Source of the DNA: Gammaproteobacteria bacterium | GTDB lineage: Bacteria > Pseudomonadota > Gammaproteobacteria > Steroidobacterales > Foliamicaceae | Length of the DNA stretch: 64,000 nucleotides | Direction of reading: 5' to 3' | Assembly: GCA_009844425.1 (NCBI GenBank) | Contig: VYBN01000033.1 | Span: 222,607 to 286,606, forward strand | Shown: positions 14,943 to 46,612 of the stretch, in pieces | Layout: the number at the start of each line of letters is the position of its first letter | Numbering within the stretch: the first letter of the stretch is position 1 | The notes under the pieces: generated by a model | Databases searched by the model: none | Seen by the model: only the letters and a program-made list of their open reading frames with translations | What the model was told of the DNA's origin: nothing | Translations under genes and position numbers: made by a program

Positions 14943-17339
14943 ATGACCAACCGCTGTAAAGCACTACCGATCTGCCTGGCCGTAGCCGCGGCAATCCTGT
15001 TCGGACCTGCACAGGTCAATATCGCGTTCGGGCAGGAGGTCCAGCTCGAGGAAATCGTCGTGACCGCGCGCAAGCGGGAGGAAGCGATTCAGGATATTCC
15101 GCTCGCCATTACCGCATTCACTTCAGACGAAATGCAGAAACGCAATATCCAGGAAATGCGCGACATCGCGCTGTTCACGCCCGGATTCAACTTCGAGGAT
15201 TTCGGCGGTACCGGCGGCACCATGCCGGTAATTCGCGGAACGACCCAGGTTGCCAGTTTCCGCAATACCGAGCAGAACGTGTCGTTCTTCTTCGACGGCG
15301 TCTACCTGCCGCGCAGCTACGTCACCGACCTTGGTTTCGTCAACATGGAGCGGATCGAAGTCGTGAAAGGCCCGCAGAGCGCGCGTTATGGCCGCAATGC
15401 GTTCATGGGAGCGGTCAACTACATTCCTCGCAAGCCGAGCGATGAGTGGCAGATTCAGGCCACCGGCCTTGGCGGCAATCATTCGCGCTACGACCTGGCG
15501 GGTACCGTTTCCGGGCCGATTGTTCCCGGCGTCATTTCGGTACTGCTGGGATTCGACAATTCGGAGTTCGACGGCTCGTGGGAAAACCCGCATCCGTATG
15601 CTGATATCGACTTCGATCAGGGAACCGACGACCGTCAGGGCGGGTATGACCGTGCGGTGACCACTGCGGCAGTGCGCTTTACGCCGAATGACGCCTTGAG
15701 TATCGACGTTGCCTATTACGACTATGACTATGACCGCGAGCACCGAGCCCAGAACTGGTTTGCCGAGCTGGAAGCAGAGAGCCACTATCTCAATTGCGGC
15801 CAGTGGAATCCGGATGTCAGGCCAGCCGGAACTCCGGGGTTTGGCGGCGGCGGACGGTGGTACCGGTTGTATTGCGGCGAACTCTTTGTTCGCAATGTTC
15901 CCACCGACCCGCGGGGATATGCCAGGCAACTCAACGCATCGTTCCTTCGGGCTTCGGTCAACTGGCGTATTAATGATGCAATTGAGGTGGAGTATGTGTT
16001 CGGTCAGATGGAAGCCGACAGCAAGACCTTTGGCTATAAGGACACCCTGCCGGGTTGCACTTTCGCGTCGCCGCTGCCCGGATGTGTCTTCGAGAGTGGG
16101 CCGATAGGCAACTTTGAAGTAGACTCGCATGAAATCCGTGTTTCCTGGGACGGTGGCGAACGCTTGCGCGTAGCTGGAGGGCTCTATTACACGGAGAACG
16201 AGGATTTCCGCACCTCGAATTTCTCCACGCTTCCGCCCCTGTCCGGCGTGCCGGCAGGCCCGGTGGATATCCTGGATCGCTCGGCGTTCATCATTTACGC
16301 CGTTCTTGCACGCACCCTGCGCACGGAAGAGTCAATTTCACCGTTCGTAGAGCTCAGTTATGCCTTCATGGATGGCCGCTCGCGTGTCGGGCTTGAGGCG
16401 CGCTACTCCGCAAGCGACAAGTTCGAGGGCGCCCTTGCGTCCGGCGGGACGGGCGGACTCGCCGAATTCTCGGGTTTGACGTTCGAGAACGAGTTCAAGT
16501 CGTTTACGCCGCGCGTAACCTGGGAGTACGACTTGAACCCCGACCGGCTGTTATTCGTATCGGCTGCTAGGGGTGTCAGGGCCGGCGGATTCAATCCCAG
16601 CGCTTTCCTGGAGGAGAACCGCACCTTCGATGAAGACCAGAACTGGACCTACGAAATAGGAAGCAAGAACACCTTCATGGACGGCCGGCTGCGACTGAAC
16701 GGATCGTTGTTCTGGATCGAATGGTCCGACGTGCAGATCACGGCGCAAGATCCCGGGAACCCCGCGATCCTTCCGCTAAACATCACCCGCAATCTAGGAG
16801 ACGTTCGGTCTACGGGTTTCGAACTGGAGGTCGCATACGCACTCACGGCCAATCTGACCATCAGCGGTTCCGCCTACTACGGCGATGCGAAGTACAAGGA
16901 CGGCACGCGTGACTTGAGGTGGGGCCGCACGCCCCTGGTGTGCGATGATGTCGTATGCGCGACCAACGGCGACATCGGCGGTAACCAGATGGAGCGTCAG
17001 TCAAAAGTCCAGACCACGATAGCGGCCGAGTGGCGCGATGAACTGGCGCTGGACTTCGCGCAGGAGTACTACCTGCGCTGGGACCTGGGCTACCAGTCCA
17101 AGCAATACGCCGAAGCCGTGAACCTGTCGTGGGCACCGGAGCGCACCATCGTCAACGCAAGCATCGGAATTGTCGGTGAATTGTATGAGGCGCAACTGTG
17201 GGCGCGCAATCTGTTCGACGAGCAGTACGTCTCCGGCATCCTGGTCGGCCAGCCCAATATCCAGTACAACGCCTACCTCGGCGAGCGCCGGACCTACGGC
17301 CTCAGGGTGATCGTAGACTTCGACGCCTTCGCGAACTGA
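14943..17339 (+). CDS. TonB-dependent outer-membrane receptor
   Basis: 798 residues from ATG 14943, preceded by GGGAGG (14930-14935). Signal peptide about 1-30 ending NIAFG. The TonB box and plug begin QLEEIVVTARKREEAIQDIP; plug motifs VIRGTTQ and FDGVYLPRS follow, then RIEVVKGPQSARYGRNAFMGAVNY. The 22-strand barrel ends with the typical LWARNLFDEQYVSG and YLGERRTYGLRVIVDF. The ligand is unknown; receptors with this plug opening include many in carbohydrate, siderophore and sterol/terpenoid uptake. Its C-terminal 65 residues are duplicated at 20012-20230. Confidence 0.93.
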   Translation: MTNRCKALPICLAVAAAILFGPAQVNIAFGQEVQLEEIVVTARKREEAIQDIPLAITAFTSDEMQKRNIQEMRDIALFTPGFNFEDFGGTGGTMPVIRGTTQVASFRNTEQNVSFFFDGVYLPRSYVTDLGFVNMERIEVVKGPQSARYGRNAFMGAVNYIPRKPSDEWQIQATGLGGNHSRYDLAGTVSGPIVPGVISVLLGFDNSEFDGSWENPHPYADIDFDQGTDDRQGGYDRAVTTAAVRFTPNDALSIDVAYYDYDYDREHRAQNWFAELEAESHYLNCGQWNPDVRPAGTPGFGGGGRWYRLYCGELFVRNVPTDPRGYARQLNASFLRASVNWRINDAIEVEYVFGQMEADSKTFGYKDTLPGCTFASPLPGCVFESGPIGNFEVDSHEIRVSWDGGERLRVAGGLYYTENEDFRTSNFSTLPPLSGVPAGPVDILDRSAFIIYAVLARTLRTEESISPFVELSYAFMDGRSRVGLEARYSASDKFEGALASGGTGGLAEFSGLTFENEFKSFTPRVTWEYDLNPDRLLFVSAARGVRAGGFNPSAFLEENRTFDEDQNWTYEIGSKNTFMDGRLRLNGSLFWIEWSDVQITAQDPGNPAILPLNITRNLGDVRSTGFELEVAYALTANLTISGSAYYGDAKYKDGTRDLRWGRTPLVCDDVVCATNGDIGGNQMERQSKVQTTIAAEWRDELALDFAQEYYLRWDLGYQSKQYAEAVNLSWAPERTIVNASIGIVGELYEAQLWARNLFDEQYVSGILVGQPNIQYNAYLGERRTYGLRVIVDFDAFAN

Positions 17340-31544: not shown

Positions 31545-31642
31545 GCTCGGTCCTTTGCTCAATCCCCGCATGGGAAGCTATTCGAGAAAGGCGACAAATC
31601 AACGGTGAGGCCGCACAAAGTCCCGCTGTACGCTGGTGGGGC

Positions 31643-31648
31643 TATACT
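31643..31648 (+). promoter_or_regulatory. -10 element of the lipoprotein gene
   Basis: TATACT, eight bases before the lipoprotein ATG at 31656. If used, the transcript would start almost at the ATG and be near leaderless; no good -35 is visible. Confidence 0.3.
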
Positions 31649-31655
31649 CAGGTTC

Positions 31656-32708
31656 ATGAGTGCCTTGAACCGATACGCGGCCTTTGTGCTTGCTGCATTG
31701 GTGTTGGTCGCTGCGGGGTGCGGTGGGGCGGATGATGCCGAAAGGGCCGAAGCGCGCACCGCCGCGGATAATCAGCGCACTGCTGTGGTTTCCGAGTTCG
31801 AGCGCGCTCTTGACGAGGCCCGGTATCTCCGCGACGACATTGCCGCCTTGCGCGAGGACATGCGGGCCGTGCGCGACGCCGCCAATGAGGAAGTCAGGCG
31901 TGCTTCCCGGGACGCGTCCGTTCTGCGCGACGAAATCGCCGCCATTCGGCTTGAAATGCAGCAGTTGAGCGAGGCCGCCGCTTCCGAGGCGGAGCGCAGC
32001 GCCGAGGAAGTCAGGACGCTACGCGACGAGATCGCTGCGCTTCGCGACGAACTGACTTCCGCACGCGAGGCTGCCGAAGCGGCCGAAGGCGATTCAGGAG
32101 ACTTCTCCGTTGCGCTGAGCGAAGCGGATGAATATCCGGACCCTGTCGTGTACGACGACGAAATCGGGACCGGGACTTATTCGCCGCAAAGGCAGACTGC
32201 GCGCCCGACCACGGTGATCTATGCGCCGACGTACCGCCGGCGGCCTCTCGCGTCGCCGCCCCGCGGCTACGCTCGCGATGCTCGGCGCTTGAGTCGTTCA
32301 CGCGATGCGCGACGAAAAGCTTCCTCCGCGACCGACACGAAGCCGGTAGTGCGAACGAAGCCGGCCGAGCGAACCAGGTCGGTTGTATCGAGAACGCGCG
32401 ACGTGTCCCGGACCCGGACGGTTGCGCCGAAAACGCGGAGGGTCGCGGATACGAGGCGACAGACGCCCAGCACGCGGCCCGCCGCACCGGCGGCACGACC
32501 CGCTGCACCAACTTCTCGCCCCGCTCGGGTGGTTTCGCGACCGGCCACGCCCACTTCGCGACCGGCTATGCCCACTTCACGTCCGGCTATGCCCACTTCA
32601 CGGCCTGCTGCCCCTGCGCCGCGACCGGCCGCGCCGGCGCCACGCCCGGCGCCGCGGCCCGCGCCGGTTCCGCAAAAGAAGACTCACGTCCCGAAACCGG
32701 AAAGATAA
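31656..32708 (+). CDS. Envelope lipoprotein with long coiled coil and basic Pro/Arg repeat tail
   Basis: 350 residues from ATG 31656. Lipobox LVAAGC indicates lipidation at a Cys about 21 residues in. Residues about 30-150 are a regular heptad coiled coil (RYLRDDIAALREDMRAVRD; LRDEIAALRDEL). The remainder is low-complexity and strongly basic, rich in Pro, Arg, Thr, Ser, with seven-residue repeats such as PAMPTSR and PAAPAPR encoded by 21-base tandem repeats near 32540-32640. Arrangement suggests a tether reaching from the outer membrane through the periplasm toward an acidic surface. No family recognised. It precedes the sterol operon by 128 bases. Confidence 0.7.
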   Translation: MSALNRYAAFVLAALVLVAAGCGGADDAERAEARTAADNQRTAVVSEFERALDEARYLRDDIAALREDMRAVRDAANEEVRRASRDASVLRDEIAAIRLEMQQLSEAAASEAERSAEEVRTLRDEIAALRDELTSAREAAEAAEGDSGDFSVALSEADEYPDPVVYDDEIGTGTYSPQRQTARPTTVIYAPTYRRRPLASPPRGYARDARRLSRSRDARRKASSATDTKPVVRTKPAERTRSVVSRTRDVSRTRTVAPKTRRVADTRRQTPSTRPAAPAARPAAPTSRPARVVSRPATPTSRPAMPTSRPAMPTSRPAAPAPRPAAPAPRPAPRPAPVPQKKTHVPKPER

Positions 32709-32836: not shown

Positions 32837-33949
32837 ATGAATCCCGTATTCGTAACCGGCGCGGCCGGACACGTGGGCGCCAATCTCGTGCGCCGCCTGC
32901 TCGACGACGGCGTTCGCATCCGGGTGCTGCTGAGGCACGAGGACAACAACGAGGGCCTGGAAGGCCTCGATGTTGAACGCGCTTACGGCGATATCCGGGA
33001 CCTGAACGCCACCCGGCGCGCGATCGAGGGTTGCCAGGGCGTCTATCACGTCGCCGCGAAAGTCTCCACCATCGACGGCACTCGCGCGCATCGCCGCGAG
33101 TTGTATGAGTGCAACGTGCTGGGCACCCGCAACGTGCTGCAGGCGGCGCGGGAGTACGAAGCCGGGCGGGTAGTGGTCACGGGCTCGTTCAGCGCGGTTG
33201 GCTACGCTCTCGACGATCCGTCCGCTCCAAGCGACGAGACCATGCAGTTCTACCCCATGGAGCGCACGATGCCGTACGAGCGCAGCAAGATGCTCGTCGA
33301 GCACGAGTGCTGGCGCGCGGCGTCGGCAGGGCAGGACGTCGTTGTCGCAACCTGCTGTGCGGTCGTGGGCGGCGCGGACTTTTTCCCGTCGCGCCTGGGC
33401 CGGACCCTGTGCGACTTCACCGACGGCAAGCTCCATGCCTACGTGGACGGGGGGTTCGAGTTCGTGGCGGCGCGCGACATCGTCGAAGGGCACCTGCTGT
33501 GCATGCGCAACGGACGCCCGGGCGAGAAGTACATCTTCAGCAGCGAATACAAGACCATCTCCGGCATGCTTGATCTCTACGAGGAGGTTACGGGCATCCC
33601 GCGTCCGCGCCGGCGGATTCCGGCCAACCTGATGTATGTCTTCTCGGAGGCGGCGAGCTTCTACCTGAGCCGCGTGCACCCCGACTTTCCCCAGCGTTTC
33701 ACGCCCGGCGCCATCCGCCTTCTGAAAAAGCGCCGCCACGCCAATCTCGACAAAGCGAAAAGCGAACTCGGCTACCGGCCGACCCGCATCCGCGACGCCG
33801 TGCATGAGGCGTACGCGTTTCACTTTCACGAGCGCAAGGCGATCACCAATCCGCAGGCAAAACGCCCGCGCGCGAACGGCGCTGCATACGAGCAAGACGC
33901 CGCGCCGAACCGCAGTGCGCAGATGACCGCCGATGGAGGCGCGTCATGA
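32837..33949 (+). CDS. sdmB: SdmB-like 4-methylsterol dehydrogenase/reductase (extended SDR)
   Basis: 370 residues. Extended short-chain dehydrogenase: NAD(P)-binding TGAAGHVGANLVRRL (residues 7-21), active Tyr147-x3-Lys151 in PYERSK. It has the 3-beta-hydroxysteroid dehydrogenase-like layout with a helical C-terminal part (LMYVFSEAASFYLSR). In bacteria with C-4 demethylated sterols such an SDR (SdmB) works with a Rieske oxygenase (SdmA); the SdmA-like gene follows with a four-base overlap. Role in 4-decarboxylation/3-keto formation is inferred from context. A hopanoid-type sugar epimerase is the alternative reading. Confidence 0.75.
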   Translation: MNPVFVTGAAGHVGANLVRRLLDDGVRIRVLLRHEDNNEGLEGLDVERAYGDIRDLNATRRAIEGCQGVYHVAAKVSTIDGTRAHRRELYECNVLGTRNVLQAAREYEAGRVVVTGSFSAVGYALDDPSAPSDETMQFYPMERTMPYERSKMLVEHECWRAASAGQDVVVATCCAVVGGADFFPSRLGRTLCDFTDGKLHAYVDGGFEFVAARDIVEGHLLCMRNGRPGEKYIFSSEYKTISGMLDLYEEVTGIPRPRRRIPANLMYVFSEAASFYLSRVHPDFPQRFTPGAIRLLKKRRHANLDKAKSELGYRPTRIRDAVHEAYAFHFHERKAITNPQAKRPRANGAAYEQDAAPNRSAQMTADGGAS

Positions 33950-35076
33950 GCACGGCGGCGGCCGGACCGCCCGGCTTCGAGGAGGCCGTCAACCTGCGCC
34001 AGAAGGTGCGCGCCGCGGGCATGGACCCGGACTATTGGTACGCGGTCGAGGAGGTGCGCAATATCAAGCCGGGATCCGTGGTCGAGGTGGTTTTCTGGAA
34101 ACGTTCGATTGCGCTGTTCCGGGCCGGGGACGGTTCGTTTCACGCCATGGACAACCGCTGCGCGCATCGCCAGCTCAAGCTGTCGCTGGGCCAGGTGGAA
34201 GGTTGCCGGCTGGTGTGCGCCTACCACGGCTGGAAATACGACCCGGATGGGCAGCTCGCCGAGACCGCGCACGAGATGCTTGGGGGAAGCATGCCCAGCG
34301 TCGCGCTCAGGACCTATCCGGTAAAGGTCCGATACGGCCTGATCTGGCTGTTCCCCGGGAACCCGGAACTGGCTCAAACGCGCCGGATTCCCGATATTCC
34401 CGAGCTGGAGGGCAAGGGTCGCTGGGCCTGCGTGCCGCTGAGCTTCACCTGGTCGGCGCACCACTCGATGGTGATCGACAACGTCAGCGATTTCACCCAC
34501 GCCTGGCTGCACCGCCGCTACCGTCCCTTCGACGGCGCCGTGCTCACGCGCTGCGAGACGGTCGGCGACGACGTGCACGTGGCCTACGACACGAGCGTCG
34601 GACGCGGGCGTTTTTCCGGAATGTTCGTCGATCGCGAGCGGATCGATACCAATTCCATGAAGCTCTGCTATCAGTATCCCTACCAGTGGTCGAACACCGA
34701 CGAGGCAATAAAGCACTGGTGTTTCGTGCTGCCCGTCGACGAACGCACCACCCGGGCCTTCTTCCTGTTCTACTTCAAGTCCCTGAAGGTTCCGATGCTG
34801 CCGATACGCTTCCCCCGGCTCGCGATGACCACGGTATTGAAGATATCCAACCGTATGCTCATCGGGCCGCTGCTTTCCCAGGACGGATTTGCGCTCGAAG
34901 CCGAGCAGGAGGGTTACGAGCGGCACTTCAACGCCCGTCCTCTCGAATTCAATCCGGCGGTACGGGCTTTTCAGAACGTGACGGTGCGCAAGTGGCAGGA
35001 GTACCTGGCCAGGGAGAACGGAGCGGAGACGCCCGCGCCCGGGTTGACGACCGCGGACGGCGGCGCCGATGCCTGA
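33946..35076 (+). CDS. sdmA: SdmA-like Rieske non-haem iron oxygenase (sterol C-4 demethylation)
   Basis: 376 residues. Rieske cluster ligands Cys72-x-His74 (RCAHRQLK) and Cys91-x2-His94 (VCAYHGWKYD). Mononuclear iron ligands are His185 and His189 in NVSDFTHAWLHRR. The architecture matches single-component steroid/sterol Rieske oxygenases. Placed between an SDR and a C-14 reductase in a sterol operon, it is the expected SdmA, oxidising a C-4 methyl group. It overlaps the SDR by four bases and the reductase by eight. Reductase partners for electron transfer are not in the window. Confidence 0.8.
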   Translation: MSTAAAGPPGFEEAVNLRQKVRAAGMDPDYWYAVEEVRNIKPGSVVEVVFWKRSIALFRAGDGSFHAMDNRCAHRQLKLSLGQVEGCRLVCAYHGWKYDPDGQLAETAHEMLGGSMPSVALRTYPVKVRYGLIWLFPGNPELAQTRRIPDIPELEGKGRWACVPLSFTWSAHHSMVIDNVSDFTHAWLHRRYRPFDGAVLTRCETVGDDVHVAYDTSVGRGRFSGMFVDRERIDTNSMKLCYQYPYQWSNTDEAIKHWCFVLPVDERTTRAFFLFYFKSLKVPMLPIRFPRLAMTTVLKISNRMLIGPLLSQDGFALEAEQEGYERHFNARPLEFNPAVRAFQNVTVRKWQEYLARENGAETPAPGLTTADGGADA

Positions 35077-36166
35077 GTTGCCGGCGCCGGTGTCAGCGCT
35101 TTCGGGCGCGCTGCTGTTCCAGGCGGCGGTAATGATCGCCGTCTTTATCGGCGCACTGTTTCTGGGATCGATGTTCCTGCCGGGACGCCGGATCAAAGGG
35201 CCGGATCTCGGCGGCAAATCGATTACTTACAAGTTCAACGGTCTGACGTTATTGCTGCTCACCGTGCTTGCGGCCGGCATCGCCCAGGTCTCCGGTGCGT
35301 TCTCACTGTCGTTGCTGTATACGCACTTTTTCGCGCTCTTCGTGGCGGCGAACGTGTTCGCATTCGCGTTTTCCGGCTGGCTGTACTGGCGAAGCGCGCG
35401 GAAGCCTGCCGAATCGCCGGGGTTCTGGCGGGCCTACTTCTTCGGTGCGGAACTCAATCCCGCCCTGCTCGGGGTGGACCTCAAGATGTTCAGCTACCGC
35501 CCGTCGCTCATCGGGCTGGCGCTGTTCAACACTTCGTTCGCGGTGGTGCAGTACGAAACCTACGGCCATCTGACCCTGGCGATGGCCCTCTACCAGGTCC
35601 TGACATGGGTCTATGTGCTCAATTACTTCCAGTTCGAAAGGGGCATGGTCCACACCTGGGACATCATCAGCGAGCGCTTCGGATGGATGCTGGTGTGGGG
35701 CGACTACGTGTTTGTGCCCTTCTTCTACTGCATTGTCGGCTGGTGGCTGGTCGATGCGTCGGGTCCGCCGCTGAATCCCCTCGCCGCCGCCGGCATCGTG
35801 CTGCTGTACGCCTTCGGCTTCTGGATATTCCGGGGCGCCAACGCGCAGAAGCACCGTTTCAAGCGCGATCCGTCCACGACGATCTGGGGCCGGCCCGCCG
35901 AGTCTCTCGACGGGCGCCTGCTGGTGTCCGGGTTCTGGGGGATCGGGCGGCACCTCAACTACAGCGGCGAGATCTGCATCTACCTCGCGTTTGCGCTCAC
36001 CACCGGTTTTGCATCCTGGGCGCCGTTTCTTTTGCCGGCCTGGCTTGCTGGGCTGCTGTGGCATCGCTCGCGCCGCGATGACCGGCGCTGCCGCGCCAAG
36101 TACGGCGAATTGTGGGGGCGCTACCGGGAGCGCGTGCCGTATTCGATGGTCCCGCTCGTGTATTGA
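35069..36166 (+). CDS. Sterol C-14 reductase (ERG24/ERG4 family)
   Basis: 365 residues, about eight to ten membrane helices. The ERG4/ERG24 signatures are all present: NPALLGVDLKMFSYRPSLIG, GWMLVWGDYVFVPFFY, WIFRGANAQKHRFKRDP (NADPH pocket), LLVSGFWGIGRHLNYSGEI and the terminal RRCRAKYGELWGRYRERVPY. It should reduce the delta-14 double bond left after CYP51 removes the 14-alpha methyl group. CYP51 begins 11 bases downstream, which fits. A delta-7 or delta-24(28) reductase activity cannot be excluded by sequence alone. Confidence 0.9.
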   Translation: MPELPAPVSALSGALLFQAAVMIAVFIGALFLGSMFLPGRRIKGPDLGGKSITYKFNGLTLLLLTVLAAGIAQVSGAFSLSLLYTHFFALFVAANVFAFAFSGWLYWRSARKPAESPGFWRAYFFGAELNPALLGVDLKMFSYRPSLIGLALFNTSFAVVQYETYGHLTLAMALYQVLTWVYVLNYFQFERGMVHTWDIISERFGWMLVWGDYVFVPFFYCIVGWWLVDASGPPLNPLAAAGIVLLYAFGFWIFRGANAQKHRFKRDPSTTIWGRPAESLDGRLLVSGFWGIGRHLNYSGEICIYLAFALTTGFASWAPFLLPAWLAGLLWHRSRRDDRRCRAKYGELWGRYRERVPYSMVPLVY

Positions 36167-36176
36167 GAGAGTAAAG

Positions 36177-37586
36177 GTGGCGAACCATACCGACAGTGCA
36201 GCCACCCTGCGTTCGGCGCGGCCCGCGGCGCCGCCGGGCAAGCCGATTCCCGAACTCTCCGGCGGTTGGCCGTTGCTCGGTCATCTGCCCGAGTTCCAGA
36301 GGGACCCGGTGGCGATGCTCGATCGCTGCCGGCGGGAGCACGGCGAACTGGTTCGTTTCCGGCTGGGGACCCGCGAATTCGTGCTGTTTACCGGACCGGA
36401 AGCCCACGACTGCTACTTCCGGGCGCCCGAGGACCAGCTTGACGCTCGTGCCGTGTACCAGTTCACGGTGCCCATCTTCGGGCGCGGCGTGGCCTACGAC
36501 GTGGCTCCCGAGATCATGGCGGAGCAGTTGGGGTTCCTGTATCCGGCGCTGCGCGATGCGTCCATGCGCCGGTATGCCGAAATCATGTACGACGAAGCCG
36601 GCCGGTTTGCCGACGCGCTCGGAGAGGAAGGCGTGCTCGACCTGCCGGCGGCGATGAACCGACTTACCGTGAACATCGCCAGCCGCTGCCTGCTGGGTCA
36701 GGAGGTACGGGATCAGGTGGATTCGGGGTTCGCCCAGGCGTACCACGACCTCGAGGAGGGAATAAACCTGATCGGCTTCTTCCTGCCCAGGCTACCGATC
36801 CCGGCGCATCGGCGTCGCGACCGCGCGCGCCGCAGGATAGCCGGAATTCTTGTCCGAATCATGGAGGGCCGGCGGGGCTCGGGCGCCGCGCCGCAGGATT
36901 TCATGCAGGCGCTGATGCAGGCCCGCTACAAGGACGGCCGGGCCCTGAGCGATGGCGAGGTGACCGGGATATTGCTGACGGTCCTGTTCGCCGGCCAGCA
37001 CACCAGCGCGGTGCTTGCAAGCTGGATGGGTCTTGAGATGTTCCGCGATCCCGCCTGCATGGCGCGGATTCGCGCCGAGATGCGCGCGATTTACGGTCAG
37101 ACGGGCTCCATGAGCCTCGCCGGCCTCAAGCGCCAGATGGCGCTGGAATGGACGGTGCGTGAGTGCGAGCGGCTGCATCCGCCGCTCATACTGCTCATTC
37201 GCAAGGTGCTGAAACCGCTTCAATATGCGGGGTACACCGTGCCTGCCGGGGCTCTGGCCGTCGTCTCTCCGGCGGTTTCCCACCGTTTGCCGGGCCTTTT
37301 TGCCGATCCCCAGCGGTTCGATCCCGAACGGTTCGCTCCGCCGCGCAGCGAGAACAAGCAACACCTCTATACGCTGATCGGTTTCGGCGGAGGCAAGCAC
37401 CGGTGCATGGGGGAAAAATTCGCCATGCTGCAATTGAAGGCGATTTGGACGGTGCTGCTGGACCGCTTCGATTTTGATCCCGTCGCCGAGTTTCCCGCAC
37501 CGAACTACGGCAGCTGGGTGACGGGCCCCACCGTGCCCTGCCGGGTCCGTTACCGCCGCCGCTCGCAAGCGAGCGTATTCAGTTGA
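36177..37586 (+). CDS. cyp51: Sterol 14-alpha-demethylase cytochrome P450 (CYP51)
   Basis: 469 residues, GTG start at 36177 preceded by GAGAGTAAAG. CYP51-specific features are seen: the B' region FTVPIFGRGVAYDVAPEIM (compare the YxxF/L..FGxGVxYD consensus), the I-helix FAGQHTSAVLASW (272-276 AGQHT), Glu329-x2-Arg332 and the haem Cys410 in GFGGGKHRCMGEKFA. No N-terminal membrane anchor, so soluble, as in other bacterial CYP51. It removes the 14-alpha methyl of lanosterol-type sterols using external electron donors that are not encoded nearby. Its stop overlaps the fusion gene start (TTGA). Confidence 0.92.
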   Translation: MANHTDSAATLRSARPAAPPGKPIPELSGGWPLLGHLPEFQRDPVAMLDRCRREHGELVRFRLGTREFVLFTGPEAHDCYFRAPEDQLDARAVYQFTVPIFGRGVAYDVAPEIMAEQLGFLYPALRDASMRRYAEIMYDEAGRFADALGEEGVLDLPAAMNRLTVNIASRCLLGQEVRDQVDSGFAQAYHDLEEGINLIGFFLPRLPIPAHRRRDRARRRIAGILVRIMEGRRGSGAAPQDFMQALMQARYKDGRALSDGEVTGILLTVLFAGQHTSAVLASWMGLEMFRDPACMARIRAEMRAIYGQTGSMSLAGLKRQMALEWTVRECERLHPPLILLIRKVLKPLQYAGYTVPAGALAVVSPAVSHRLPGLFADPQRFDPERFAPPRSENKQHLYTLIGFGGGKHRCMGEKFAMLQLKAIWTVLLDRFDFDPVAEFPAPNYGSWVTGPTVPCRVRYRRRSQASVFS

Positions 37587-40500
37587 GCGCCGCCTCTCCG
37601 CGTTACGACGTAATCATCGTGGGCGCGGGGCCTGTCGGCAGCTACTGCGCCATCGCCCACGCGCGCAAGGGCGCGCGCGTGGCGCTGCTCGAGGCGAACC
37701 CCAGGGCGTCTACGCGGCTGGCCGGCGAGTGGCTGCATCCGCTGGCCGTGCGCATGTTGCGCGATGCCGGCATCCGCCTCGATCCGCCGCTGCGCAGCAG
37801 CGAGGGTCAGGGCTTCGTCGTGTTCCCGGAGGACGGCTCGGAGCCGATCGTGCTCCCGTACCCCGGCGGGGCGCTGGGGATAGCCTGCGACCATGAGATT
37901 CTCGTGGCGCGTCTTCATGAAGCCGTCCGCAAGGAGCCGGGCATCGACTTTCTTGTCAATGCGCGGGTGCGGCAGGTCGAAGACGACGGCGTGGTCTTCA
38001 CCCGCGGCGGCTCCACCGAACGCCTCGCCGCCGACAGGATTGTCGGCGCCGATGGCCGGTCTTCCGCCGTGCGGCGGTCCCTGGGCCTGCCGATGCGCCG
38101 CAGGGCCTGCTCGCGGATGGTGGGCGTGACCCTCGAGGGCGTGAGTCTCCAGCCGGCCGGCTACGGCAACGTGATACTCGGCGGCCCGGGTCCGATTCTC
38201 GGATATCCGCTGGGCGAGCATTGCGCCAGGATCGTTGTCGACGTGCCGCTTGAGCAGTGGACGTCGCGCGACAGGACCGGCCTGCTGGCCGAGTCCTACG
38301 CCAGTGTCCTGCCGGAAGCGTTGAGGCCCGCGTTTCTCTCGGCGCTGAGGTCGGGAAATTTCCACGCGGCGGCCAATGAACTGAGGCCGCGCATCTCCTA
38401 CGGCACGTCGAGGCGGGTGCTGATCGGCGATGCGGCGGGTCATTACCATCCGATGACGGCGGTGGGCATGACGCTCGGTTTCGGCGACGCCGCCGCGCTG
38501 GCGGAAGGCGGGAGCTTCAGGAGTTTCGCCGCCGGGCGATTCAGGGCGACCCGCGCCCCGGAACTGCTTGCCATGGGGCTGTACGAGGTCTTTGCCGATC
38601 ATCGACTCGAAGCGGCGGCGCTCCGGCGCGCGATCTACCGCAACTGGCGGGCGCATGGCGTCGTTCGCGACCGGACCATGCGGCTGCTCGCCTGTGAAGA
38701 AACCTCGATGACCCACCTAGTGCTCGCAACCCTCGCTACGGTGATCCGGGCGATTGCGGGAGTGGTTCGTTCGTCGTTCAGACAGTTGGCCTGGCGGCGC
38801 GCCCGCTACATCGTTATACCGATCGTTACCCGCGCCCGCTGGTTCATGCGTGGCATTCGCAAGCTGAAGGAGGCCAGGAACGGAGGCGGCGGTCAGGACC
38901 GGCAGGCCCGCAGGGCGTTGTCGCGCGCGCTTCTCGCTTCCATGTCCCCGGGCGACGGCGGAGCCGGCGCCGCGCGGACGGGCGAATCCACTTCGCCCGA
39001 CGCGGAGCCCGCAGTGCGCAGGGTCGCGTTGCGCCTGCTGGACCTTCAGGGCGAGGACGGCGCCTGGGAAGGCGAGATGGTCTGGTGCCCCATGCTTACC
39101 GCGCAATACGTGCTGCTTCGGCACATCCTCGGTGAACCGATCGACTCCGGCCGGCGGCGGCGCATCCTGCGCTCGTTCGAATGCACCCGCCTGGCGGACG
39201 GCGCGTGGGGATTGCATGAGCACTCGCCGCCCCACCTCTTCGTGACCGTTCTGGTATATGTCGCGTCGCGACTGCTCGGCGTCGAGCGCGACGATCCGCT
39301 TATCGAACCGGCCCGCCGTTTCCTCGCCGAAGAGGATGTGCTCGCGGTCCCGAGCTGGGGGAAATTCTGGCTGGCGCTGCTCAATCTGTACGACTGGCGA
39401 GGGGTGAACGCAATTCTTCCGGAACTGTGGACGCTGCCACGCGGTTTGCCGTTGCACCCGTCGAACTGGTACTGCCATACGCGGCTCATCTACATGGCGA
39501 TGGCGTCCATCTACGCGCGACGGTTCCAGGCGCCGGTCACGCCCGTGATCGAATCCCTGCGCGAGGAGCTGTTCGGAGACGAGTTTGCCCGGGTCGATTT
39601 TTCTTCCGTCCGCAACCGCCTGCGCGATGCCGACCTTTTTGCACGGCCGAGCTTGTGGCTGCGCGCCGGTTACACGCTGGCGCGCCTGTATGACCGCTTC
39701 CACAGCAAGCGCCTGCGCCGGCGCTGCCTCGAGAAGCTGGTCCGGCAGATCCAATGGGAGTTGCGGACCACGAGTCACAGCAGCATCTCGCCGGTCAGCG
39801 GTTTTCTGAACATTCTGGCCCTGTGGCTGCGCGATCCGGACGACGCCGACTGCCGCGCCGCGCTCGACAAGCTCGATGGGTGGTTCTGGGAGGACGAGGA
39901 GCGCGGCGCGCGGGTCACCGGAGCGAGAAGCAGCACCTGGGACACGGCCTTTTCCGTGCAGGCGCTGGCGGCCGCGCCCGGGTCCGATGAAATTGCAGAC
40001 GCCGTCAGCAAGGGCGCCGTCTTCCTGCGCTCACAACAGATCCGCAACAGATTCGACGGGTTTCGCGAGGCCTTTCGCGCCGACCCGAAGGGAGGCTGGT
40101 GTTTTCCCGGCGGCTGGCATGGCTGGCCGGTCAGCGACTGCACCGCCGAAGCCGTGCTCGGGATTCTCGCGGCAGGAGGTGAAGACGCGGACAAGTCGGC
40201 GCTGGACGAGGCGGTCCGGTTCATGTTGCGGAGCCAGAACCGGGACGGCGGCTTCGGCAGCTATGAGGCGCGGCGCTCGCGGATCGGTCTCGAGTGGCTG
40301 AACCCCGCCGAGATGTTCGGGGAATCGATGACCGAAAATTCCTATGTCGAGTGCACGGCGTCCTGTCTTGAGGCGCTGGCCGCCTGCGGGCGCCGGTTTC
40401 CGCAATTCCCGGATCCGCGGGTGGCCCGGGCCATTTCCAGGGGCGCCGTCTGGCTGCGCAAGACCCAGGGACGCGATGGCTCCTGGCGCGGCGTGTGGGG

Positions 40501-40990
40501 CGTTCAGTTCATCTACGGGACCTTCTTCGGCATCAGAGGACTGGTGGCCGCCGGGGCAGGACCCGGCGATCCGGCGTTGCGCCTGGCCTGCCGCTGGCTG
40601 CTCGACCGGCAGCGCGATGACGGCGGATGGGGCGAACACCACAGCGGCTGCCTGACGGGCCGCTACGTCCCGCATGAGGAAAGCCAGGTCATCCAGACCG
40701 CCTGGGCCCTGCTCGCGCTGCTGGAGGCGGAGGAGTCCAACTGGACCGCCATTGCGCGCGGCGCGCGGTTCCTGCTCGACGCCCAGGAAGCGGACGGCGG
40801 CTGGCCGAAACAGGACATGGCCGGCGTCTTCTTCCGCACGGCGCTGCTGGACTACGTCCTGTACCGGCAGTATTTCCCGCTGCGCGCGCTCGGCCTCTAC
40901 GAGCAACGCCGCCGGAAGCGGCTCGAACTGACTGCCGCTTCGAAGGAGAAGGAGCCGGACGCGATCCGGATCAGGCCGCGAGCCGCTTGA
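37583..40990 (+). CDS. Squalene monooxygenase-oxidosqualene cyclase fusion
   Basis: 1135 residues in one uninterrupted frame, TTG start. Part 1 (about 1-430) is an FAD monooxygenase of the squalene-epoxidase type: GAGPVG (14-19), AGEWLHPLAVRML, DRIVGADGRSS (151-161), and LIGDAAGHYHPMTAVGMTL (280-298) that parallels the eukaryotic GDAFNMRHPLTGGGMT motif, then hydrophobic segments 379-399 and about 408-415. A Gly/Ala/Ser-rich linker spans about 431-475. Part 2 (about 476-1110) is a triterpene cyclase: QW repeats (RDGGFGSYE, GRDGSWRGVWG, DDGGWGEHH), HPSNWYCHTRLIYMAM and HGWPVSDCTAE with catalytic Asp852. The DCTAE form marks oxidosqualene cyclases, not squalene-hopene cyclases. It would turn squalene into a cyclised sterol in one polypeptide. 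Confidence 0.92.
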   Translation: MSAASPRYDVIIVGAGPVGSYCAIAHARKGARVALLEANPRASTRLAGEWLHPLAVRMLRDAGIRLDPPLRSSEGQGFVVFPEDGSEPIVLPYPGGALGIACDHEILVARLHEAVRKEPGIDFLVNARVRQVEDDGVVFTRGGSTERLAADRIVGADGRSSAVRRSLGLPMRRRACSRMVGVTLEGVSLQPAGYGNVILGGPGPILGYPLGEHCARIVVDVPLEQWTSRDRTGLLAESYASVLPEALRPAFLSALRSGNFHAAANELRPRISYGTSRRVLIGDAAGHYHPMTAVGMTLGFGDAAALAEGGSFRSFAAGRFRATRAPELLAMGLYEVFADHRLEAAALRRAIYRNWRAHGVVRDRTMRLLACEETSMTHLVLATLATVIRAIAGVVRSSFRQLAWRRARYIVIPIVTRARWFMRGIRKLKEARNGGGGQDRQARRALSRALLASMSPGDGGAGAARTGESTSPDAEPAVRRVALRLLDLQGEDGAWEGEMVWCPMLTAQYVLLRHILGEPIDSGRRRRILRSFECTRLADGAWGLHEHSPPHLFVTVLVYVASRLLGVERDDPLIEPARRFLAEEDVLAVPSWGKFWLALLNLYDWRGVNAILPELWTLPRGLPLHPSNWYCHTRLIYMAMASIYARRFQAPVTPVIESLREELFGDEFARVDFSSVRNRLRDADLFARPSLWLRAGYTLARLYDRFHSKRLRRRCLEKLVRQIQWELRTTSHSSISPVSGFLNILALWLRDPDDADCRAALDKLDGWFWEDEERGARVTGARSSTWDTAFSVQALAAAPGSDEIADAVSKGAVFLRSQQIRNRFDGFREAFRADPKGGWCFPGGWHGWPVSDCTAEAVLGILAAGGEDADKSALDEAVRFMLRSQNRDGGFGSYEARRSRIGLEWLNPAEMFGESMTENSYVECTASCLEALAACGRRFPQFPDPRVARAISRGAVWLRKTQGRDGSWRGVWGVQFIYGTFFGIRGLVAAGAGPGDPALRLACRWLLDRQRDDGGWGEHHSGCLTGRYVPHEESQVIQTAWALLALLEAEESNWTAIARGARFLLDAQEADGGWPKQDMAGVFFRTALLDYVLYRQYFPLRALGLYEQRRRKRLELTAASKEKEPDAIRIRPRAA

Positions 40991-40992
40991 CG

Positions 40993-42012
40993 TCAGTCTC
41001 CCCGGGGCAGGGGTTTGCGGGCCAGGAAGTAGAACATCGGCGTAAAGATCCCGGTCCGGCCGCCTTCTACGAGCGTATCCGCCCCCCAGTTCAGGAACGT
41101 GCTGACCTCCCGCACGCCTTGCGGAGCGAGCCGCAACGGCTCCGCAACCCGCAGGATCAGATTGGTCAGGACGCGCCCCAACGGCGTGCGCGGGATGCTC
41201 GCAAGGCTGAAGTCCCGGCCCTGAAGGGCCCGGTACCAGGGCGTTTCCGGATCCGATTCGCCGGCGAGGTCGAGGGATTCGATCAGCTCGAATCCGGCCG
41301 CGCGCACGGCATCGCAAACTTCTGTCGTGCCGGCGATATCCGGTAGCGCCGATCCGGTCATGATTCCTTCCTTGATTTGCCGGTGTTCCGCGTTCGAAGG
41401 ATCGAAGGCGTCGGTGAGACACCACTCGTAGCACGCGAAACCGGCCCCCGGACGTAAAACACGGAAGATCTCGGCGTACGCGGCGGTCTTGTCCGGCGCG
41501 TGGGGCATCGCTTCGATGCTGATGGCGCCATCGTAGTGGTCGTCGCTCCGGGGAATCTGCATGTAGTCGCTTTTGATGAAACGGCACAGCGCCTCGACGT
41601 CACGTGTGTGCACTTTCGCGCGCTCGATCTGGTAGGCGTTGTTATTGATGCCGACAAAGCTTGCGCCGCAATGGCGGGCCAGGTTGCCCATGGGGCCGCC
41701 CACGCCGCATCCCACGTCGAGAACCTGCATTCCCGGCTTCAGGGAGAGCTTGTCGGCCAGAAAATGCTGGTGCCGGATCTGCGACACCTTGAAACTCTCG
41801 CTCCGCCGGCGGGGGGCGAAGTGGAAGCTCTTGCCCCAACCCCACTCGTAGAAATCGGTCACGAGGTCGTAGTACTGGTTGACGAGCTGCCGGTAGCGCT
41901 CCTTCTTGCGCTCGACGCCGGCATCGTGAAGCCCGACGTAGTCATCGACCACCGACTTCACTTCCTCCTGGGTCAGATTCCCAAGGGAACGTTTGGCTAC
42001 TTTCGCATCCAC
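40993..42012 (-). CDS. Sterol C-24 methyltransferase (ERG6/SMT type)
   Basis: 339 residues from GTG 42012; an ATG at 42231 would run the gene through the divergent promoter and next gene. SMT signatures: the sterol-binding YYDLVTDFYEWGWGKSFHF (motif YEWGWG 55-60), SAM site VLDVGCGVGGPMGN (97-110), GINNNAYQIERA, SIEAMPHAPDKTAAYAEIFRVLRPG, CYEWCLTDAFDPSN, and WYRALQG. These match eukaryotic ERG6/SMT more closely than tocopherol or generic methyltransferases. It should add a methyl at C-24 of the sterol side chain. It is convergent with the fusion gene, two bases apart. Confidence 0.93.
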   Translation of the reverse strand: MDAKVAKRSLGNLTQEEVKSVVDDYVGLHDAGVERKKERYRQLVNQYYDLVTDFYEWGWGKSFHFAPRRRSESFKVSQIRHQHFLADKLSLKPGMQVLDVGCGVGGPMGNLARHCGASFVGINNNAYQIERAKVHTRDVEALCRFIKSDYMQIPRSDDHYDGAISIEAMPHAPDKTAAYAEIFRVLRPGAGFACYEWCLTDAFDPSNAEHRQIKEGIMTGSALPDIAGTTEVCDAVRAAGFELIESLDLAGESDPETPWYRALQGRDFSLASIPRTPLGRVLTNLILRVAEPLRLAPQGVREVSTFLNWGADTLVEGGRTGIFTPMFYFLARKPLPRGD

Positions 42013-42050
42013 CCCCGCGCCTCCGGATATGCCGGCAGGAAACCAGCGGG

Positions 42051-42076
42051 ATTCTATCCCGCGGGCGCGATAGAAT
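42051..42076. promoter_or_regulatory. Inverted repeat with divergent -10-like boxes between SMT and membrane-protein genes
   Basis: ATTCTATC (42051-42058) and GATAGAAT (42069-42076) are inverted with a 10-base spacer. Each arm contains TAGAAT reading outward, so the two arms can serve as divergent -10 elements for the methyltransferase (minus) and the membrane protein (plus); the latter ATG is 37 bases downstream. A shared operator for a dimeric regulator is also possible. Confidence 0.45.
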
Positions 42077-42112
42077 GCGCCCGCCGCCACAGTGGATAGT
42101 GTGAGGGGGCAC

Positions 42113-42847
42113 ATGTCCGACAGCCGCGCCAGCCTGCCGCCATCCGAACAGGGCCGGAGAAGCAAGGGCCCGACGGTGCCGGTGGCGTGGGTCGTCGCAC
42201 TGACAGTCGCAGGCGGCACGCTTTTCGGCATCCTGGTGCGCCTGCGGACCCACGGGGAGCTGAATTTCCTTCACTCCCTGTTCTGCCTGTTCTTTTCGGT
42301 CAATCTCCTGATCTGTTACTGGGAGATCTGCCTGTTTTTCCTGCGCGACAGGATCGGGTCTCGCGCCGAGTACTGGCGAGAAATGCAGCGCAGAACGGGG
42401 CGCTCGCCAGCGCACGGGTTCTTCGCCACAAGGATCGGACTGACTCAGGTCCTGTCGCCGGCCGTCTGGGCCGATGCCTGGGCGGCCTACTGCTATTACG
42501 ACGACTCGTATGCGGACCGCCGCACCTTCGGCTTCAATGTGGATATCGCCAATGGTTTCGTGACGCCCGTTCCGACACTGGTGCTGTATGCCGCATACAC
42601 GGTCGGTTACCCGTCCGCTGTGGTTGCCGGGATCATCGGGCTGATGCTGTCCTGGCAATGGGTCTATATGACCTCGACCTACCTGGTCAGCTTTTTCGTG
42701 GCGAGGCGGCACAAGCTGCTGAGCCGGCGCGACATGTGCATCTACATCGTGGCGATCAATTCCTTCTGGATCCTGTGCGCGCTGCTGGGCGTATACGTTT
42801 CCGCTGCCCTCATCGTCAACGGCGACTACCGCGTGCTGGGTTTGTAA
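42113..42847 (+). CDS. Polytopic membrane protein, possible sterol C-8 isomerase (EXPERA/emopamil-binding-like)
   Basis: 244 residues from ATG 42113 with GAGGGGG eight bases before. Five to six membrane helices. Faint pattern agreement with emopamil-binding proteins (delta-8/delta-7 sterol isomerase) is visible: an acidic aromatic stretch WAAYCYYDDSYADRRTFG, then WVYMTSTYLVSF, then IYIVAINSFWILCALLG, which parallels the conserved FYFVFMNxLWxxxPG helix. Key residues of the family cannot be matched with certainty. Position within a sterol locus, head to head with the methyltransferase, supports a sterol role; the exact reaction is inference. Confidence 0.5.
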   Translation: MSDSRASLPPSEQGRRSKGPTVPVAWVVALTVAGGTLFGILVRLRTHGELNFLHSLFCLFFSVNLLICYWEICLFFLRDRIGSRAEYWREMQRRTGRSPAHGFFATRIGLTQVLSPAVWADAWAAYCYYDDSYADRRTFGFNVDIANGFVTPVPTLVLYAAYTVGYPSAVVAGIIGLMLSWQWVYMTSTYLVSFFVARRHKLLSRRDMCIYIVAINSFWILCALLGVYVSAALIVNGDYRVLGL

Positions 42848-44651: not shown

Positions 44652-45482
44652 CTACACGCCGTAGAAGCAGGCGGCGGTGGCGCCCAGCACAAGGGCTTGA
44701 TCTGCTTCGTCCAGACTGCTCAGGAAGCGGTCGGCGATCGCGTGCCAGCCGGGGTAGGTGCCGGCCAGCAGGAGTACCGGCCAGTCGCTGCCCCACATGA
44801 GGCGCTCCGGCCCGAAGGTGGCGAACAGGTGCTCCATGTAGGGGAGCAGGTCGTCGTAGCCCTGGTCCGGGCTTGCCTCGGTCAAGAGGCCCGACAGCTT
44901 GCAGTACGCGCCGGTGCGCTCGGCCAGTTCGGACATGCGGTCCGCCCACGGCTGCCACAGCCCCTCGGCAATGACCGGCTTGGCGCCGTGGTCGATCACG
45001 GTCTTGAGGTCCGGATGGCGCTGCAGGAACTCGAGCAGATAGGGCAGGTGCTGGGGGCGGACCAGCGCGTCGAAGCACAGGCCGGCGTCGATCACCGCTT
45101 CGGTCGCCGCCGCCAGCCCCGGGCGCGTGATCCAGGCCTCGTCCTCGATGTTGTGGATCATCGGCCGGATGCCTACCAGCTTAGGGTGCTGCGCGAGATC
45201 GCCAAGCACCGTCGCCGCATCGGCGCTTTCCATGTCGATCCAGCCCACCACGCCGGCCACCAGGTCGGTCTGGCCGGCCAGTTCCAGCATGAAGCGAGTT
45301 TCCGCGACGGTCGGCGCGGCCTGGACCAGGATGGTCCTGTCGACGCCCGCTTCCAGCAGCAGCGGTGCGAGGTCGTCGGGGCCGAAATCACGGTACAGCG
45401 GCTCGAGCGCCGGCGTCAGCCAGCCGTAGTCGTTGCGCTCGACCTTCCAGAAGTGCTGGTGGGCGTCGATTCGAGGCGGCAT
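44652..45482 (-). CDS. L-fuconolactonase-type amidohydrolase
   Basis: 276 residues from the ATG at 45482; the frame extends to 45611 but only through the Rieske gene's 3' end. COG3618 TIM-barrel lactonase: metal-binding RIDAHQHFWKVERNDYGWL, then GIRPMIHNIEDEAWI, TVIDHGAKP, YCKLSGLLTEAS, and LMWGSDWPVLLL. It hydrolyses L-fucono-1,5-lactone or a related sugar lactone. Its ATG shares one base with the stop of the Rieske oxygenase gene upstream on the same strand (TAATG), so the two are coupled. It is 13 kb from the other fucose genes. Confidence 0.85.
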   Translation of the reverse strand: MPPRIDAHQHFWKVERNDYGWLTPALEPLYRDFGPDDLAPLLLEAGVDRTILVQAAPTVAETRFMLELAGQTDLVAGVVGWIDMESADAATVLGDLAQHPKLVGIRPMIHNIEDEAWITRPGLAAATEAVIDAGLCFDALVRPQHLPYLLEFLQRHPDLKTVIDHGAKPVIAEGLWQPWADRMSELAERTGAYCKLSGLLTEASPDQGYDDLLPYMEHLFATFGPERLMWGSDWPVLLLAGTYPGWHAIADRFLSSLDEADQALVLGATAACFYGV

Positions 45483-46612
45483 TAGCGTGGAAAAGTCGTC
45501 GGCACCACCGGGTGGACCCAGTTCTTCGGGTCTTTCCGGCGGGCGGGCGAGGGGATGGAGTAGTGCCGGAAGCGCCCTTCGTCCCGCAACCTGTCGAAAT
45601 CGATTTCCCATCCCTGTTTTACTTTCTCGATCAGCACCTTGCGGAACGCCGTCTCCATCTGGTCGGCCTCCACCAGGAGCTGGTGCGCCATGGAGCGCGG
45701 CACGAACTTCGGCTCGACCGTGGCCACCACGTCAAGATCTTCCTTGTAGGCCCGCCGTATGCCTTCGCGGCGCGCCTCGTCGTGCTCTTCGCCCAGCAGG
45801 TAATTGCGGGCCTGGTGCGCGAAAACCCGCGTGTTGTACGGATCGACGGGCGTGCGGGCGGAAACGGTCACTTGTCTGATATTGCCTTCCCTTGTGATGT
45901 CGATACGGTGGGAAATGCCCGCCAGGTAGGAATCGGTCGAGGCCGTGGTCTTGCCCCTCTTCTCGGAAACGAGTTTGGCGATATCGGCGCTGATCTGACT
46001 GCGCTTGGGCGGCACGCGCTGGCGGGTGGCGTTGTGTCCCATGAACGCATTGGGAACCAGCGGAACGATCTGCACTTCCGGCGCGCTGCGGCGGCCGAAG
46101 CTGGCATGCACGAATGCCGGGTGGGCGCTGTCCAGGGAATTCTCGTGGCCACGGGCCCAGTTCACGTCCGCGTCGAATTCCATCGAAACCACGCGCCAGT
46201 TTTCCTTGTCGTGGTATTCCGGGAACTCGGTGGCCGGAATCCGGGGACGCTCGTCCTCCTCCAGGTCGCCCAGGAACACCCATATCCAGTCAAAGTGCTC
46301 TTCGACGGGATACGAGTCCACCCGCGCGCGCTTCGGAATCTTCGCGTCCTTTCCCAGGGCCGGGATCTCCACGCACCGGCCCTGCGGATTGAACTTCCAG
46401 CCGTGGTAGCCGCAACCGATGCAGCCGGTACCGTCGAGCTCGCCACGGCCGATCGAACCTCCGCGATGGCAGCAGGTGTTGGCCAGGCAAACCGCCTCGC
46501 CTTCGGGCGTGCGGTACAGGACGAAGTTCTGGCCTAACATACGCACGATCAGGGGCTTCGCCCCATTCACTTGTTGACTCTTGGCAGCCACGTACCAGTT
46601 ATTGATCAGCAT
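45482..46612 (-). CDS. Rieske aromatic-ring/side-chain oxygenase, alpha-subunit type
   Basis: 376 residues. Rieske ligands Cys47-x-His49 (NTCCHRGGSIG) and Cys67-x2-His70 (GCGYHGWKFN). Mononuclear iron motif NSLDSAHPAFVH with two His. It resembles single-component demethylases and ring hydroxylases such as vanillate O-demethylase-type or dicamba-type enzymes; substrate unknown. Coupled to the lactonase downstream. Different from the SdmA-like Rieske protein at 33946 in length and motif context. Confidence 0.88.
   Translation of the reverse strand: MLINNWYVAAKSQQVNGAKPLIVRMLGQNFVLYRTPEGEAVCLANTCCHRGGSIGRGELDGTGCIGCGYHGWKFNPQGRCVEIPALGKDAKIPKRARVDSYPVEEHFDWIWVFLGDLEEDERPRIPATEFPEYHDKENWRVVSMEFDADVNWARGHENSLDSAHPAFVHASFGRRSAPEVQIVPLVPNAFMGHNATRQRVPPKRSQISADIAKLVSEKRGKTTASTDSYLAGISHRIDITREGNIRQVTVSARTPVDPYNTRVFAHQARNYLLGEEHDEARREGIRRAYKEDLDVVATVEPKFVPRSMAHQLLVEADQMETAFRKVLIEKVKQGWEIDFDRLRDEGRFRHYSIPSPARRKDPKNWVHPVVPTTFPR

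Follow-up and report, generated by a model that had tools for sequence, protein, structure and literature searches.

A bacterial sterol locus and its seventh gene, a proposed EBP-fold C-8 isomerase beside a C-24 methyltransferase

The window analysed here, a stretch of 64,000 nucleotides that forms part of contig C19 (positions 222607-286606) of a bacterial assembly of 3.03 Mb in 50 contigs (94.44% completeness, 0.57% estimated contamination), carries a sterol locus of seven adjoining genes at window positions 32837-42847. The locus probably serves to make alkylated sterols from squalene in one bacterium, with the product of the seventh gene (gene 7, G7) acting as a divergent C-8 isomerase with the fold of EBP. 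The locus exists as described and belongs to a published kind; its new element is the proposed reading of gene 7, which is drawn from a predicted fold, from conserved residues and from the company that the gene keeps.

All seven open reading frames (ORFs) that a preliminary description of this DNA had listed as adjacent genes are present. Five lie on the plus strand, each overlapping the next or almost abutting it, the sterol methyltransferase (SMT) gene faces them from the minus strand, and gene 7 is divergent from the latter. They are as follows, with positions in the published msb cluster, discussed below, where one exists:

32837..33949, plus strand: SdmB-like short-chain dehydrogenase, C-4 demethylation, msbA position (NCBIfam SdmB, 3Beta_HSD)
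33946..35076, plus strand: SdmA-like Rieske oxygenase, C-4 methyl oxidation, msbB position (NCBIfam 4beta-methylsterol monooxygenase, Rieske)
35069..36166, plus strand: ERG24-type C-14 sterol reductase, msbC position (ERG4_ERG24, 4quv)
36177..37586, plus strand: CYP51 sterol 14-demethylase, msbD position (PDB matches)
37583..40990, plus strand: fused squalene epoxidase and oxidosqualene cyclase, 1135 aa, msbE position (SE and cyclase domains)
40993..42012, minus strand: sterol C-24 methyltransferase, msbF position (Sterol_MT_C); ORF readable up to 42231
42013..42112: divergent intergenic stretch of 100 bases between the SMT gene and gene 7, defined by position only
42113..42847, plus strand: gene 7, a 244-residue membrane protein for which the EBP fold is predicted and C-8 isomerization (delta8 to delta7) proposed

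Neither Pfam nor NCBIfam gives a match to the window's gene 7 at E 0.01. Weak matches to the Pfam family EBP are obtained with 13 of 24 members of the gene 7 family (best E 0.0032), the window's member not being among them, and six of ten members searched singly match it roughly along one diagonal, at 8.3-15.5 bits, under the gathering score of 25.7. AlphaFold2 models built from 24 and 45 sequences reach a mean pLDDT (predicted local distance difference test) of 86.4 and 90.5, respectively, and, on our reading, predict five long membrane-type helices. When the two models are compared with the PDB by Foldseek, human EBP is retrieved with both (8w0r, prob 1.00 each time; 6oht, 0.99 and 0.96), the template modelling (TM) values to EBP chains being 0.51-0.66 and the identity 13-15%. 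EBP is the sole credible fold among the 50 matches listed per model, the others having prob <=0.18. The suspicion of the preliminary description that a C-8 isomerase might be encoded here is, therefore, supported by the EBP fold predicted with two models.

The residues of the protein are partly consistent with this fold. Alanine scanning has provided a list of 11 residues that determine EBP activity (PMC4263179); in the hhalign register eight of them are identical in gene 7, against a background of 30 identical columns in 189 (a hypergeometric probability of 2e-5, which is generous because the aligner is drawn to conserved residues). Counterparts of seven (W101, Y104, D108, Y111, T125, N193 and W196) are conserved in 40 to 45 of 45 gene 7 sequences, and E71, D144 and N147 of gene 7 are invariant across the same set. 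Gene 7 and human EBP (6oht, 8w0r) are, in short, alike in the fold found by Foldseek and in seven determinants brought into register by one weak alignment, and they differ, on our reading, in the longer stretch that gene 7 has ahead of the short W/Y helix.

The distribution of gene 7 links it to the fused epoxidase-cyclase. A scan of a genome collection with the fused protein gave 194 relatives, the best 80 of which (57-93% identity) were retained as loci L003-L082. Profile searches found gene 7 in the window's genome, in 36 of the 50 genomes of L003-L052 and in 20 of the 30 of L053-L082; the total, 56 of 81 fusion-bearing genomes, leaves out G028, the genome of L012, and includes G026 (gene in two pieces), G058 (split over two contigs) and G043 (one internal stop). 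In a sample of 369 genomes of the class, gene 7 is present in two, and six match the fused protein at 1e-60; the fusion is full-length in three (G000, G296 and G145), two of which have gene 7, and none of the 366 sampled genomes without a full-length fusion gave gene 7 in searches that scored at most seven and at most two candidates per genome, so that weak copies may have been missed. Among 19 genomes searched for both genes, all six fusion-bearers have gene 7, a part copy being found in one further genome that is 66% complete. The place of gene 7 varies, from adjoining the fused gene to divergent from the SMT or from the SdmB gene, and it is far off in G005. The sequence distances of gene 7 and of the fusion are correlated, with a Mantel r of 0.84 over 24 proteins and 0 of 2000 permutations as high.

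In addition, gene 7 seems to take up the position held in related clusters by ERG2, an isomerase of fungal type. A search of 51 genomes for ERG2 (PF04622) gave five bearers, namely the genomes of L012, L014, L019, L039 and L040, two of them with one TGA within the match, and an intact gene 7 is found in none of the five (plain Fisher p 0.002, a test that ignores relatedness). ERG2 adjoins the SMT or the fused gene in L014, L019, L039 and L040; in L012 it is outside the DNA examined for the locus. A search of 30 further genomes found no ERG2, and gave no match in its controls either. As a separate observation, contig C2 of G028, the ERG2-bearing genome of L012, has at 15250-15324 a 25-position match to gene 7 with an internal stop (E 1.4e-4), which is perhaps a trace of replacement, or chance.

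Several results weigh against an isomerase function of gene 7 or against its exchange with ERG2. No EBP was retrieved from the PDB by sequence, either with the profile or with a single member; the structural matches carry poor E-values in Foldseek (0.024 and 0.023 with 8w0r, 0.57 and 1.2 with 6oht), and hhalign, when it sets the gene 7 profile against human EBP, likewise gives a weak score (E 0.032, probability 1.6%). The eighth identical determinant, Glu80, aligns to Glu86, a position at which just 26 of the 45 members carry Glu; this pairing we regard as untrustworthy, the invariant Glu71 of helix 2 being the likelier counterpart. His76 and Glu122, which are important in human EBP (PMC6549186), are unmatched, being aligned to Leu77 and Gly148 of gene 7, so that the proton donor must differ if gene 7 is an isomerase. 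The mutual exclusion of gene 7 and ERG2 is non-significant in a tree-aware test (five pairs, at most two of them informative, with ERG2 changing five times), and 20 of 81 genomes have neither gene, perhaps partly as the result of assembly incompleteness. Finally, a PF01222 search of 26 genomes found five that have gene 7 but no ERG24-type match, and gene 7 is, therefore, not strictly tied to the C-14 reductase. The same search gave seven Acidimicrobiia genomes without gene 7 and with a distant ERG4/ERG24 relative. With exceptions both ways, no clean rule joining gene 7 to the ERG24 reductase holds across the 26 genomes.

In the light of these results, a gene 7 product that has the EBP fold without being an isomerase, for example a sterol-binding or trafficking protein like the EXPERA members TMEM97 and TM6SF, is a serious though unlikely alternative. 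The two unmatched catalytic residues and the very weak sequence likeness to EBP would suit such a protein, but no TMEM97 or sigma-2 is named among the 50 Foldseek matches listed per model, the seven determinants listed above are kept almost throughout the family, and ERG2, a C-8 isomerase of another family, takes a place beside the SMT or the fused gene in four loci that are free of gene 7. As to the more ambitious form of the preferred reading, namely that gene 7 is the founding member of a new family of bacterial C-8 isomerases that have the EBP fold but lack the catalytic histidine, and is swapped with the unrelated ERG2 among otherwise equal clusters in several phyla, the balance tips very slightly in its favour.

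The other six genes belong to recognized families, and the assignments made in the preliminary description (epoxidase-cyclase fusion, CYP51, ERG24, SdmA/SdmB-like proteins and SMT) are borne out by Pfam, NCBIfam and PDB matches. The reductase matches ERG4_ERG24 at 3.7e-72, has the C-14 sterol reductase 4quv as its closest solved structure (4e-67) and is the sole PF01222 match found in the window's genome. The cytochrome P450 (p450, 1.4e-61) is closest to CYP51 6mcw (1e-111), and the top 18 of the 60 PDB matches listed are all named CYP51 or sterol 14-demethylase. The fusion is a single open frame, free of stops, with the SE domain at residues 154-394 (1.6e-22) and the cyclase domains at 480-1107 (SQHop_cyclase N 5.1e-52, C 1.5e-56); it aligns with human lanosterol synthase 1w6k (1e-137), including the VSDCTAE stretch, and with squalene monooxygenase 6c6n (1.4e-25). 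Its valine two residues ahead of the DCTAE aspartate, present also in 1w6k, is taken by us to be the residue on which the assignment of the msbE cyclase turns. A key valine was used to call msbE a lanosterol cyclase (PMC7074536). The SMT matches Sterol_MT_C at 1.6e-21 (76.6 bits, above the gathering score of 21.7), and its family identity suggests that it carries out the C-24 methylation; other symbiont SMTs methylate a delta24 sterol in vitro (PMC10070321).

As to the two C-4 proteins, the best Pfam model for the dehydrogenase is Epimerase (2.5e-33), 3Beta_HSD matching at 3.5e-18, and the best NCBIfam model is SdmB (1.9e-88); for the Rieske protein (Rieske, 4.3e-20), whose PDB matches are other Rieske oxygenases at 4e-18 or weaker, it is SdmA, the 4beta-methylsterol monooxygenase (8.5e-120). 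Thus, the SdmA and SdmB models of Methylococcus type are the best available for both, but the scores, 297 bits for the dehydrogenase and 400 bits for the Rieske protein, are under the curated cut-off of 600 in each case, which is why the proteins are named SdmA-like and SdmB-like. The cyclase is likewise under the cut-off of the NCBIfam 2,3-oxidosqualene cyclase model TIGR03463 (1.7e-230, 767 bits versus 851), and over that of the wider subfamily TIGR01787 (508 bits versus 322.7). That all three proteins fall short of the cut-offs of their best models is a point against the pathway as proposed.

As to the gene starts, CYP51 probably begins at GTG 36177, gene 7 at ATG 42113 and the SMT at GTG 42012 rather than at ATG 42231; in related loci the SMT match starts at residue 67 or later (at least 67) of the long ORF in 37 of 41. 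With the SMT start at GTG 42012 the apparent overlap of the SMT gene and gene 7 is gone, and the promoters of both presumably lie, judged by position, within 42013..42112. Directly upstream of the cluster, window positions 31605-32708 encode a coiled-coil, Arg/Pro-rich protein with marginal Pfam matches, and close downstream, on the minus strand at 45482-46612, there is a second Rieske-like ORF, named from its sequence.

What is observed is which families the genes belong to and that they are linked; the reactions and their sequence, how many steps act at C-4 and at C-24, and what product results are proposed by reading established sterol chemistry onto the genes. Squalene made by HpnC, HpnD and HpnE would be turned by the fused protein into its epoxide and then into a cyclized product, most likely lanosterol; CYP51 would remove the 14-methyl group and the ERG24-type reductase would saturate C-14, giving a delta8 sterol; the SdmA/SdmB-like pair would remove one or both C-4 methyls; gene 7, filling the place that ERG2 holds in some related clusters, would convert delta8 to delta7; and the SMT, placed last in the favoured order, would alkylate C-24. 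Bacterial sterols can also bear an 8(14) double bond (PMC13277303), so that the product is not deducible from gene content. A possible candidate for a C-5 desaturase is one generic FA_hydroxylase gene on contig C9.

The supply of squalene is accounted for by the genome. A genome-wide search for HpnCDE, which the preliminary description had proposed as a check, located all three on contig C14, HpnC being divergent from HpnD and HpnE and each scoring over its curated cut-off. When the fused protein was searched against the genome, the sole strong match was its own gene, and one weak match covered the epoxidase part only; squalene has, thus, no other evident cyclase, with the reservation that the assembly is incomplete and absence is no proof. 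It has been proposed for a Chlamydiae metagenome-assembled genome (MAG) with an SMT and no other sterol genes (PMC10070321) that such enzymes serve to remodel sterols taken from elsewhere, and the window's enzymes could, likewise, chiefly remodel sponge-derived sterols, de novo synthesis being minor. Such a role is improbable here, as the genome encodes squalene synthesis and a fused epoxidase-cyclase, both needless for a remodeller.

Loci of this type are widespread. The titles of the best 80 records name Gammaproteobacteria, Alphaproteobacteria, Nitrospira, Binatota, Acidimicrobiia, Gemmatimonadetes, Dehalococcoidia, Bryobacterales, Rhodothermales and others, with sponge names in a few (e.g. 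Spongia_Bin9 and lac_sponge TsSOB). Counted within the DNA of the 80 loci, with CYP51 accepted from 50% identity and SdmA/B from 45%, and with loci cut by contig ends scored as misses, SdmB-like genes are present in 56, SdmA-like in 57, ERG24 in 57 and CYP51 in 61, and the SMT, gene 7 and ERG2 in 41, 24 and 4 loci, respectively. The order SdmB, SdmA, ERG24, CYP51, fusion is conserved in 53 of the 80, among which the SMT gene is on the minus strand in 27 and on the plus strand in 9. In a quick tree that joins the window's fusion protein to the best 80 of its 194 relatives (81 proteins in all), labelled by record titles with four rows unlabelled, each of five of the seven listed phyla lies on one side of a branch, Acidobacteriota needing two changes and Pseudomonadota four. 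Over all groups nine changes are needed, the least possible being eight, and rampant transfer of the fusion between phyla is not shown in this sample.

Closer to the window's organism, a long match to the fusion is present in six of nine genomes of its genus, the window's own included, with an identity of 81-100% in five of them and of 65% in the sixth. In the order outside the genus, none of ten genomes has a full-length fusion, one having a 29% cyclase-only match. An origin of the locus by eukaryotic contamination or assembly artefact has, accordingly, next to no probability: copies of the fusion 81-95% identical occur in four other same-genus assemblies and a 65% copy in a fifth, the neighbouring genes are bacterial, and the same-genus copies together with the low contamination estimate speak against eukaryotic contamination.

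Other genes recur near the related clusters, a single representative of each family having been scanned. A fusion of GPP34 (Golgi phosphoprotein 3) with a cytochrome P450 is found at L012:6668-8683 and in 14 further loci (15 of 81), an MMPL/RND transporter at L028:297-2594 and in 12 further (13 of 81), and a LolA-like protein in 5 of 81. The transporter matches HpnN under its cut-off and is very weakly like the sterol transporter BstA. A protein of the flavin amine-oxidase family, which could be a further sterol redox enzyme, occurs in 17 of 81 loci (L045:14492-15868 and 16 others). The Acidimicrobiia loci L025, L049, L051, L056, L057, L063 and L069 have the fused gene without the other core genes within the locus DNA; in five of them (L049, L051, L056, L063 and L069) a DUF2855-family protein lies nearby, and these five may lead to a simple cyclized product.

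The six recognized genes have a close precedent in the msb cluster of a gammaproteobacterial symbiont of Melophlus sarasinorum, described in 2020 (PMC7074536), the contig of which is deposited as MT026193.1 (accession from PMC9531527). There, the oxidoreductase gene msbA overlaps msbB, encoding a Rieske oxygenase, and is followed by msbC (sterol reductase), msbD (lanosterol demethylase), msbE (bifunctional epoxidase/cyclase) and msbF (sterol methyltransferase), the same six genes as the first six of the locus, with squalene synthase on a separate scaffold. The msb MAG is 95% complete in 57 scaffolds, compared with 94.44% in 50 contigs for the window's assembly, and the two organisms may, from these descriptions rather than from a comparison of sequences, be the same or sisters. 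According to the msb paper, the genes at the termini of the cluster have no likeness to sterol genes, whereas in the window the neighbour of the SMT gene is read as an EBP-fold isomerase. The same paper ties msb to sarasinosides, and that MAG also has glycosyltransferase genes, which would suit a cluster whose product, as proposed for msb, is not a membrane sterol but the aglycone of a sarasinoside-type steroid saponin or some other metabolite that is exported. Such a product is rather unlikely, given that related clusters are found in records of many phyla and in 10 phyla of Ircinia symbionts (PMC9531527).

These symbionts provide a second precedent. Clusters of steroid genes (CSGs) were reported in 2022 in 115 of 537 Ircinia MAGs, of 11 classes and 10 phyla, with signs of horizontal transfer, an SMT or FDFT1 gene usually flanking and ERG2 in several (PMC9531527). 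Their core of ERG24, CYP51 and LSS, with SMT or FDFT1 adjoining, is that of the window, where genes for ERG24, CYP51 and the cyclase are adjacent in that order, the epoxidase and cyclase are fused, the dehydrogenase and Rieske genes are upstream and the SMT gene is beside them. SdmA and SdmB are left unannotated in that paper, and the terms EBP and isomerase are absent from its main text (PMC9531527). Sponge-symbiont SMTs were then assayed in vitro in 2023: eight of ten methylate desmosterol, three reach 24-ethyl and two 24-isopropyl sterols, and some of those tested sit in sterol clusters (PMC10070321). The SMT clusters of the sponge metagenomes also contain sdmA, sdmB and other sterol genes, and a fused squalene monooxygenase/oxidosqualene cyclase (SMO/OSC) is mentioned in the methods, a likeness to the window that is by description; the terms EBP and erg2 are absent from the main text (PMC10070321).

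With msb, the Ircinia CSGs and the sponge SMT clusters in print, the linkage of C-24 methylation to the other sterol genes is not exceptional, contrary to what the preliminary description had held. The bearing on 24-alkyl sterane biomarkers that it pointed out is relevant but not new, this consequence having already been argued in print. An EBP-type gene in such clusters is found in none of the open-access main texts searched, a scope outside which are supplements, figures, subscription journals and preprints. A C-8 isomerase in Methylotuvimicrobium species (PMC13277303) and a homologue for C-8 isomerization in a Calothrix cluster (PMC10202945) are mentioned with the family unnamed in the portions of text examined.

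The window's cluster can be added to the published evidence on the making of side-chain-alkylated sterols by bacteria in sponges, evidence that bears on whether 24-alkyl steranes are to be read as marks of eukaryotes or of sponges. If gene 7 is indeed a C-8 isomerase, it would fill the delta8 to delta7 step left empty in the msb description, two unrelated isomerases would be seen to replace each other, and the ring chemistry of bacterial 24-alkyl sterols would be complete, so that symbionts could make delta7 24-alkyl sterols unaided.

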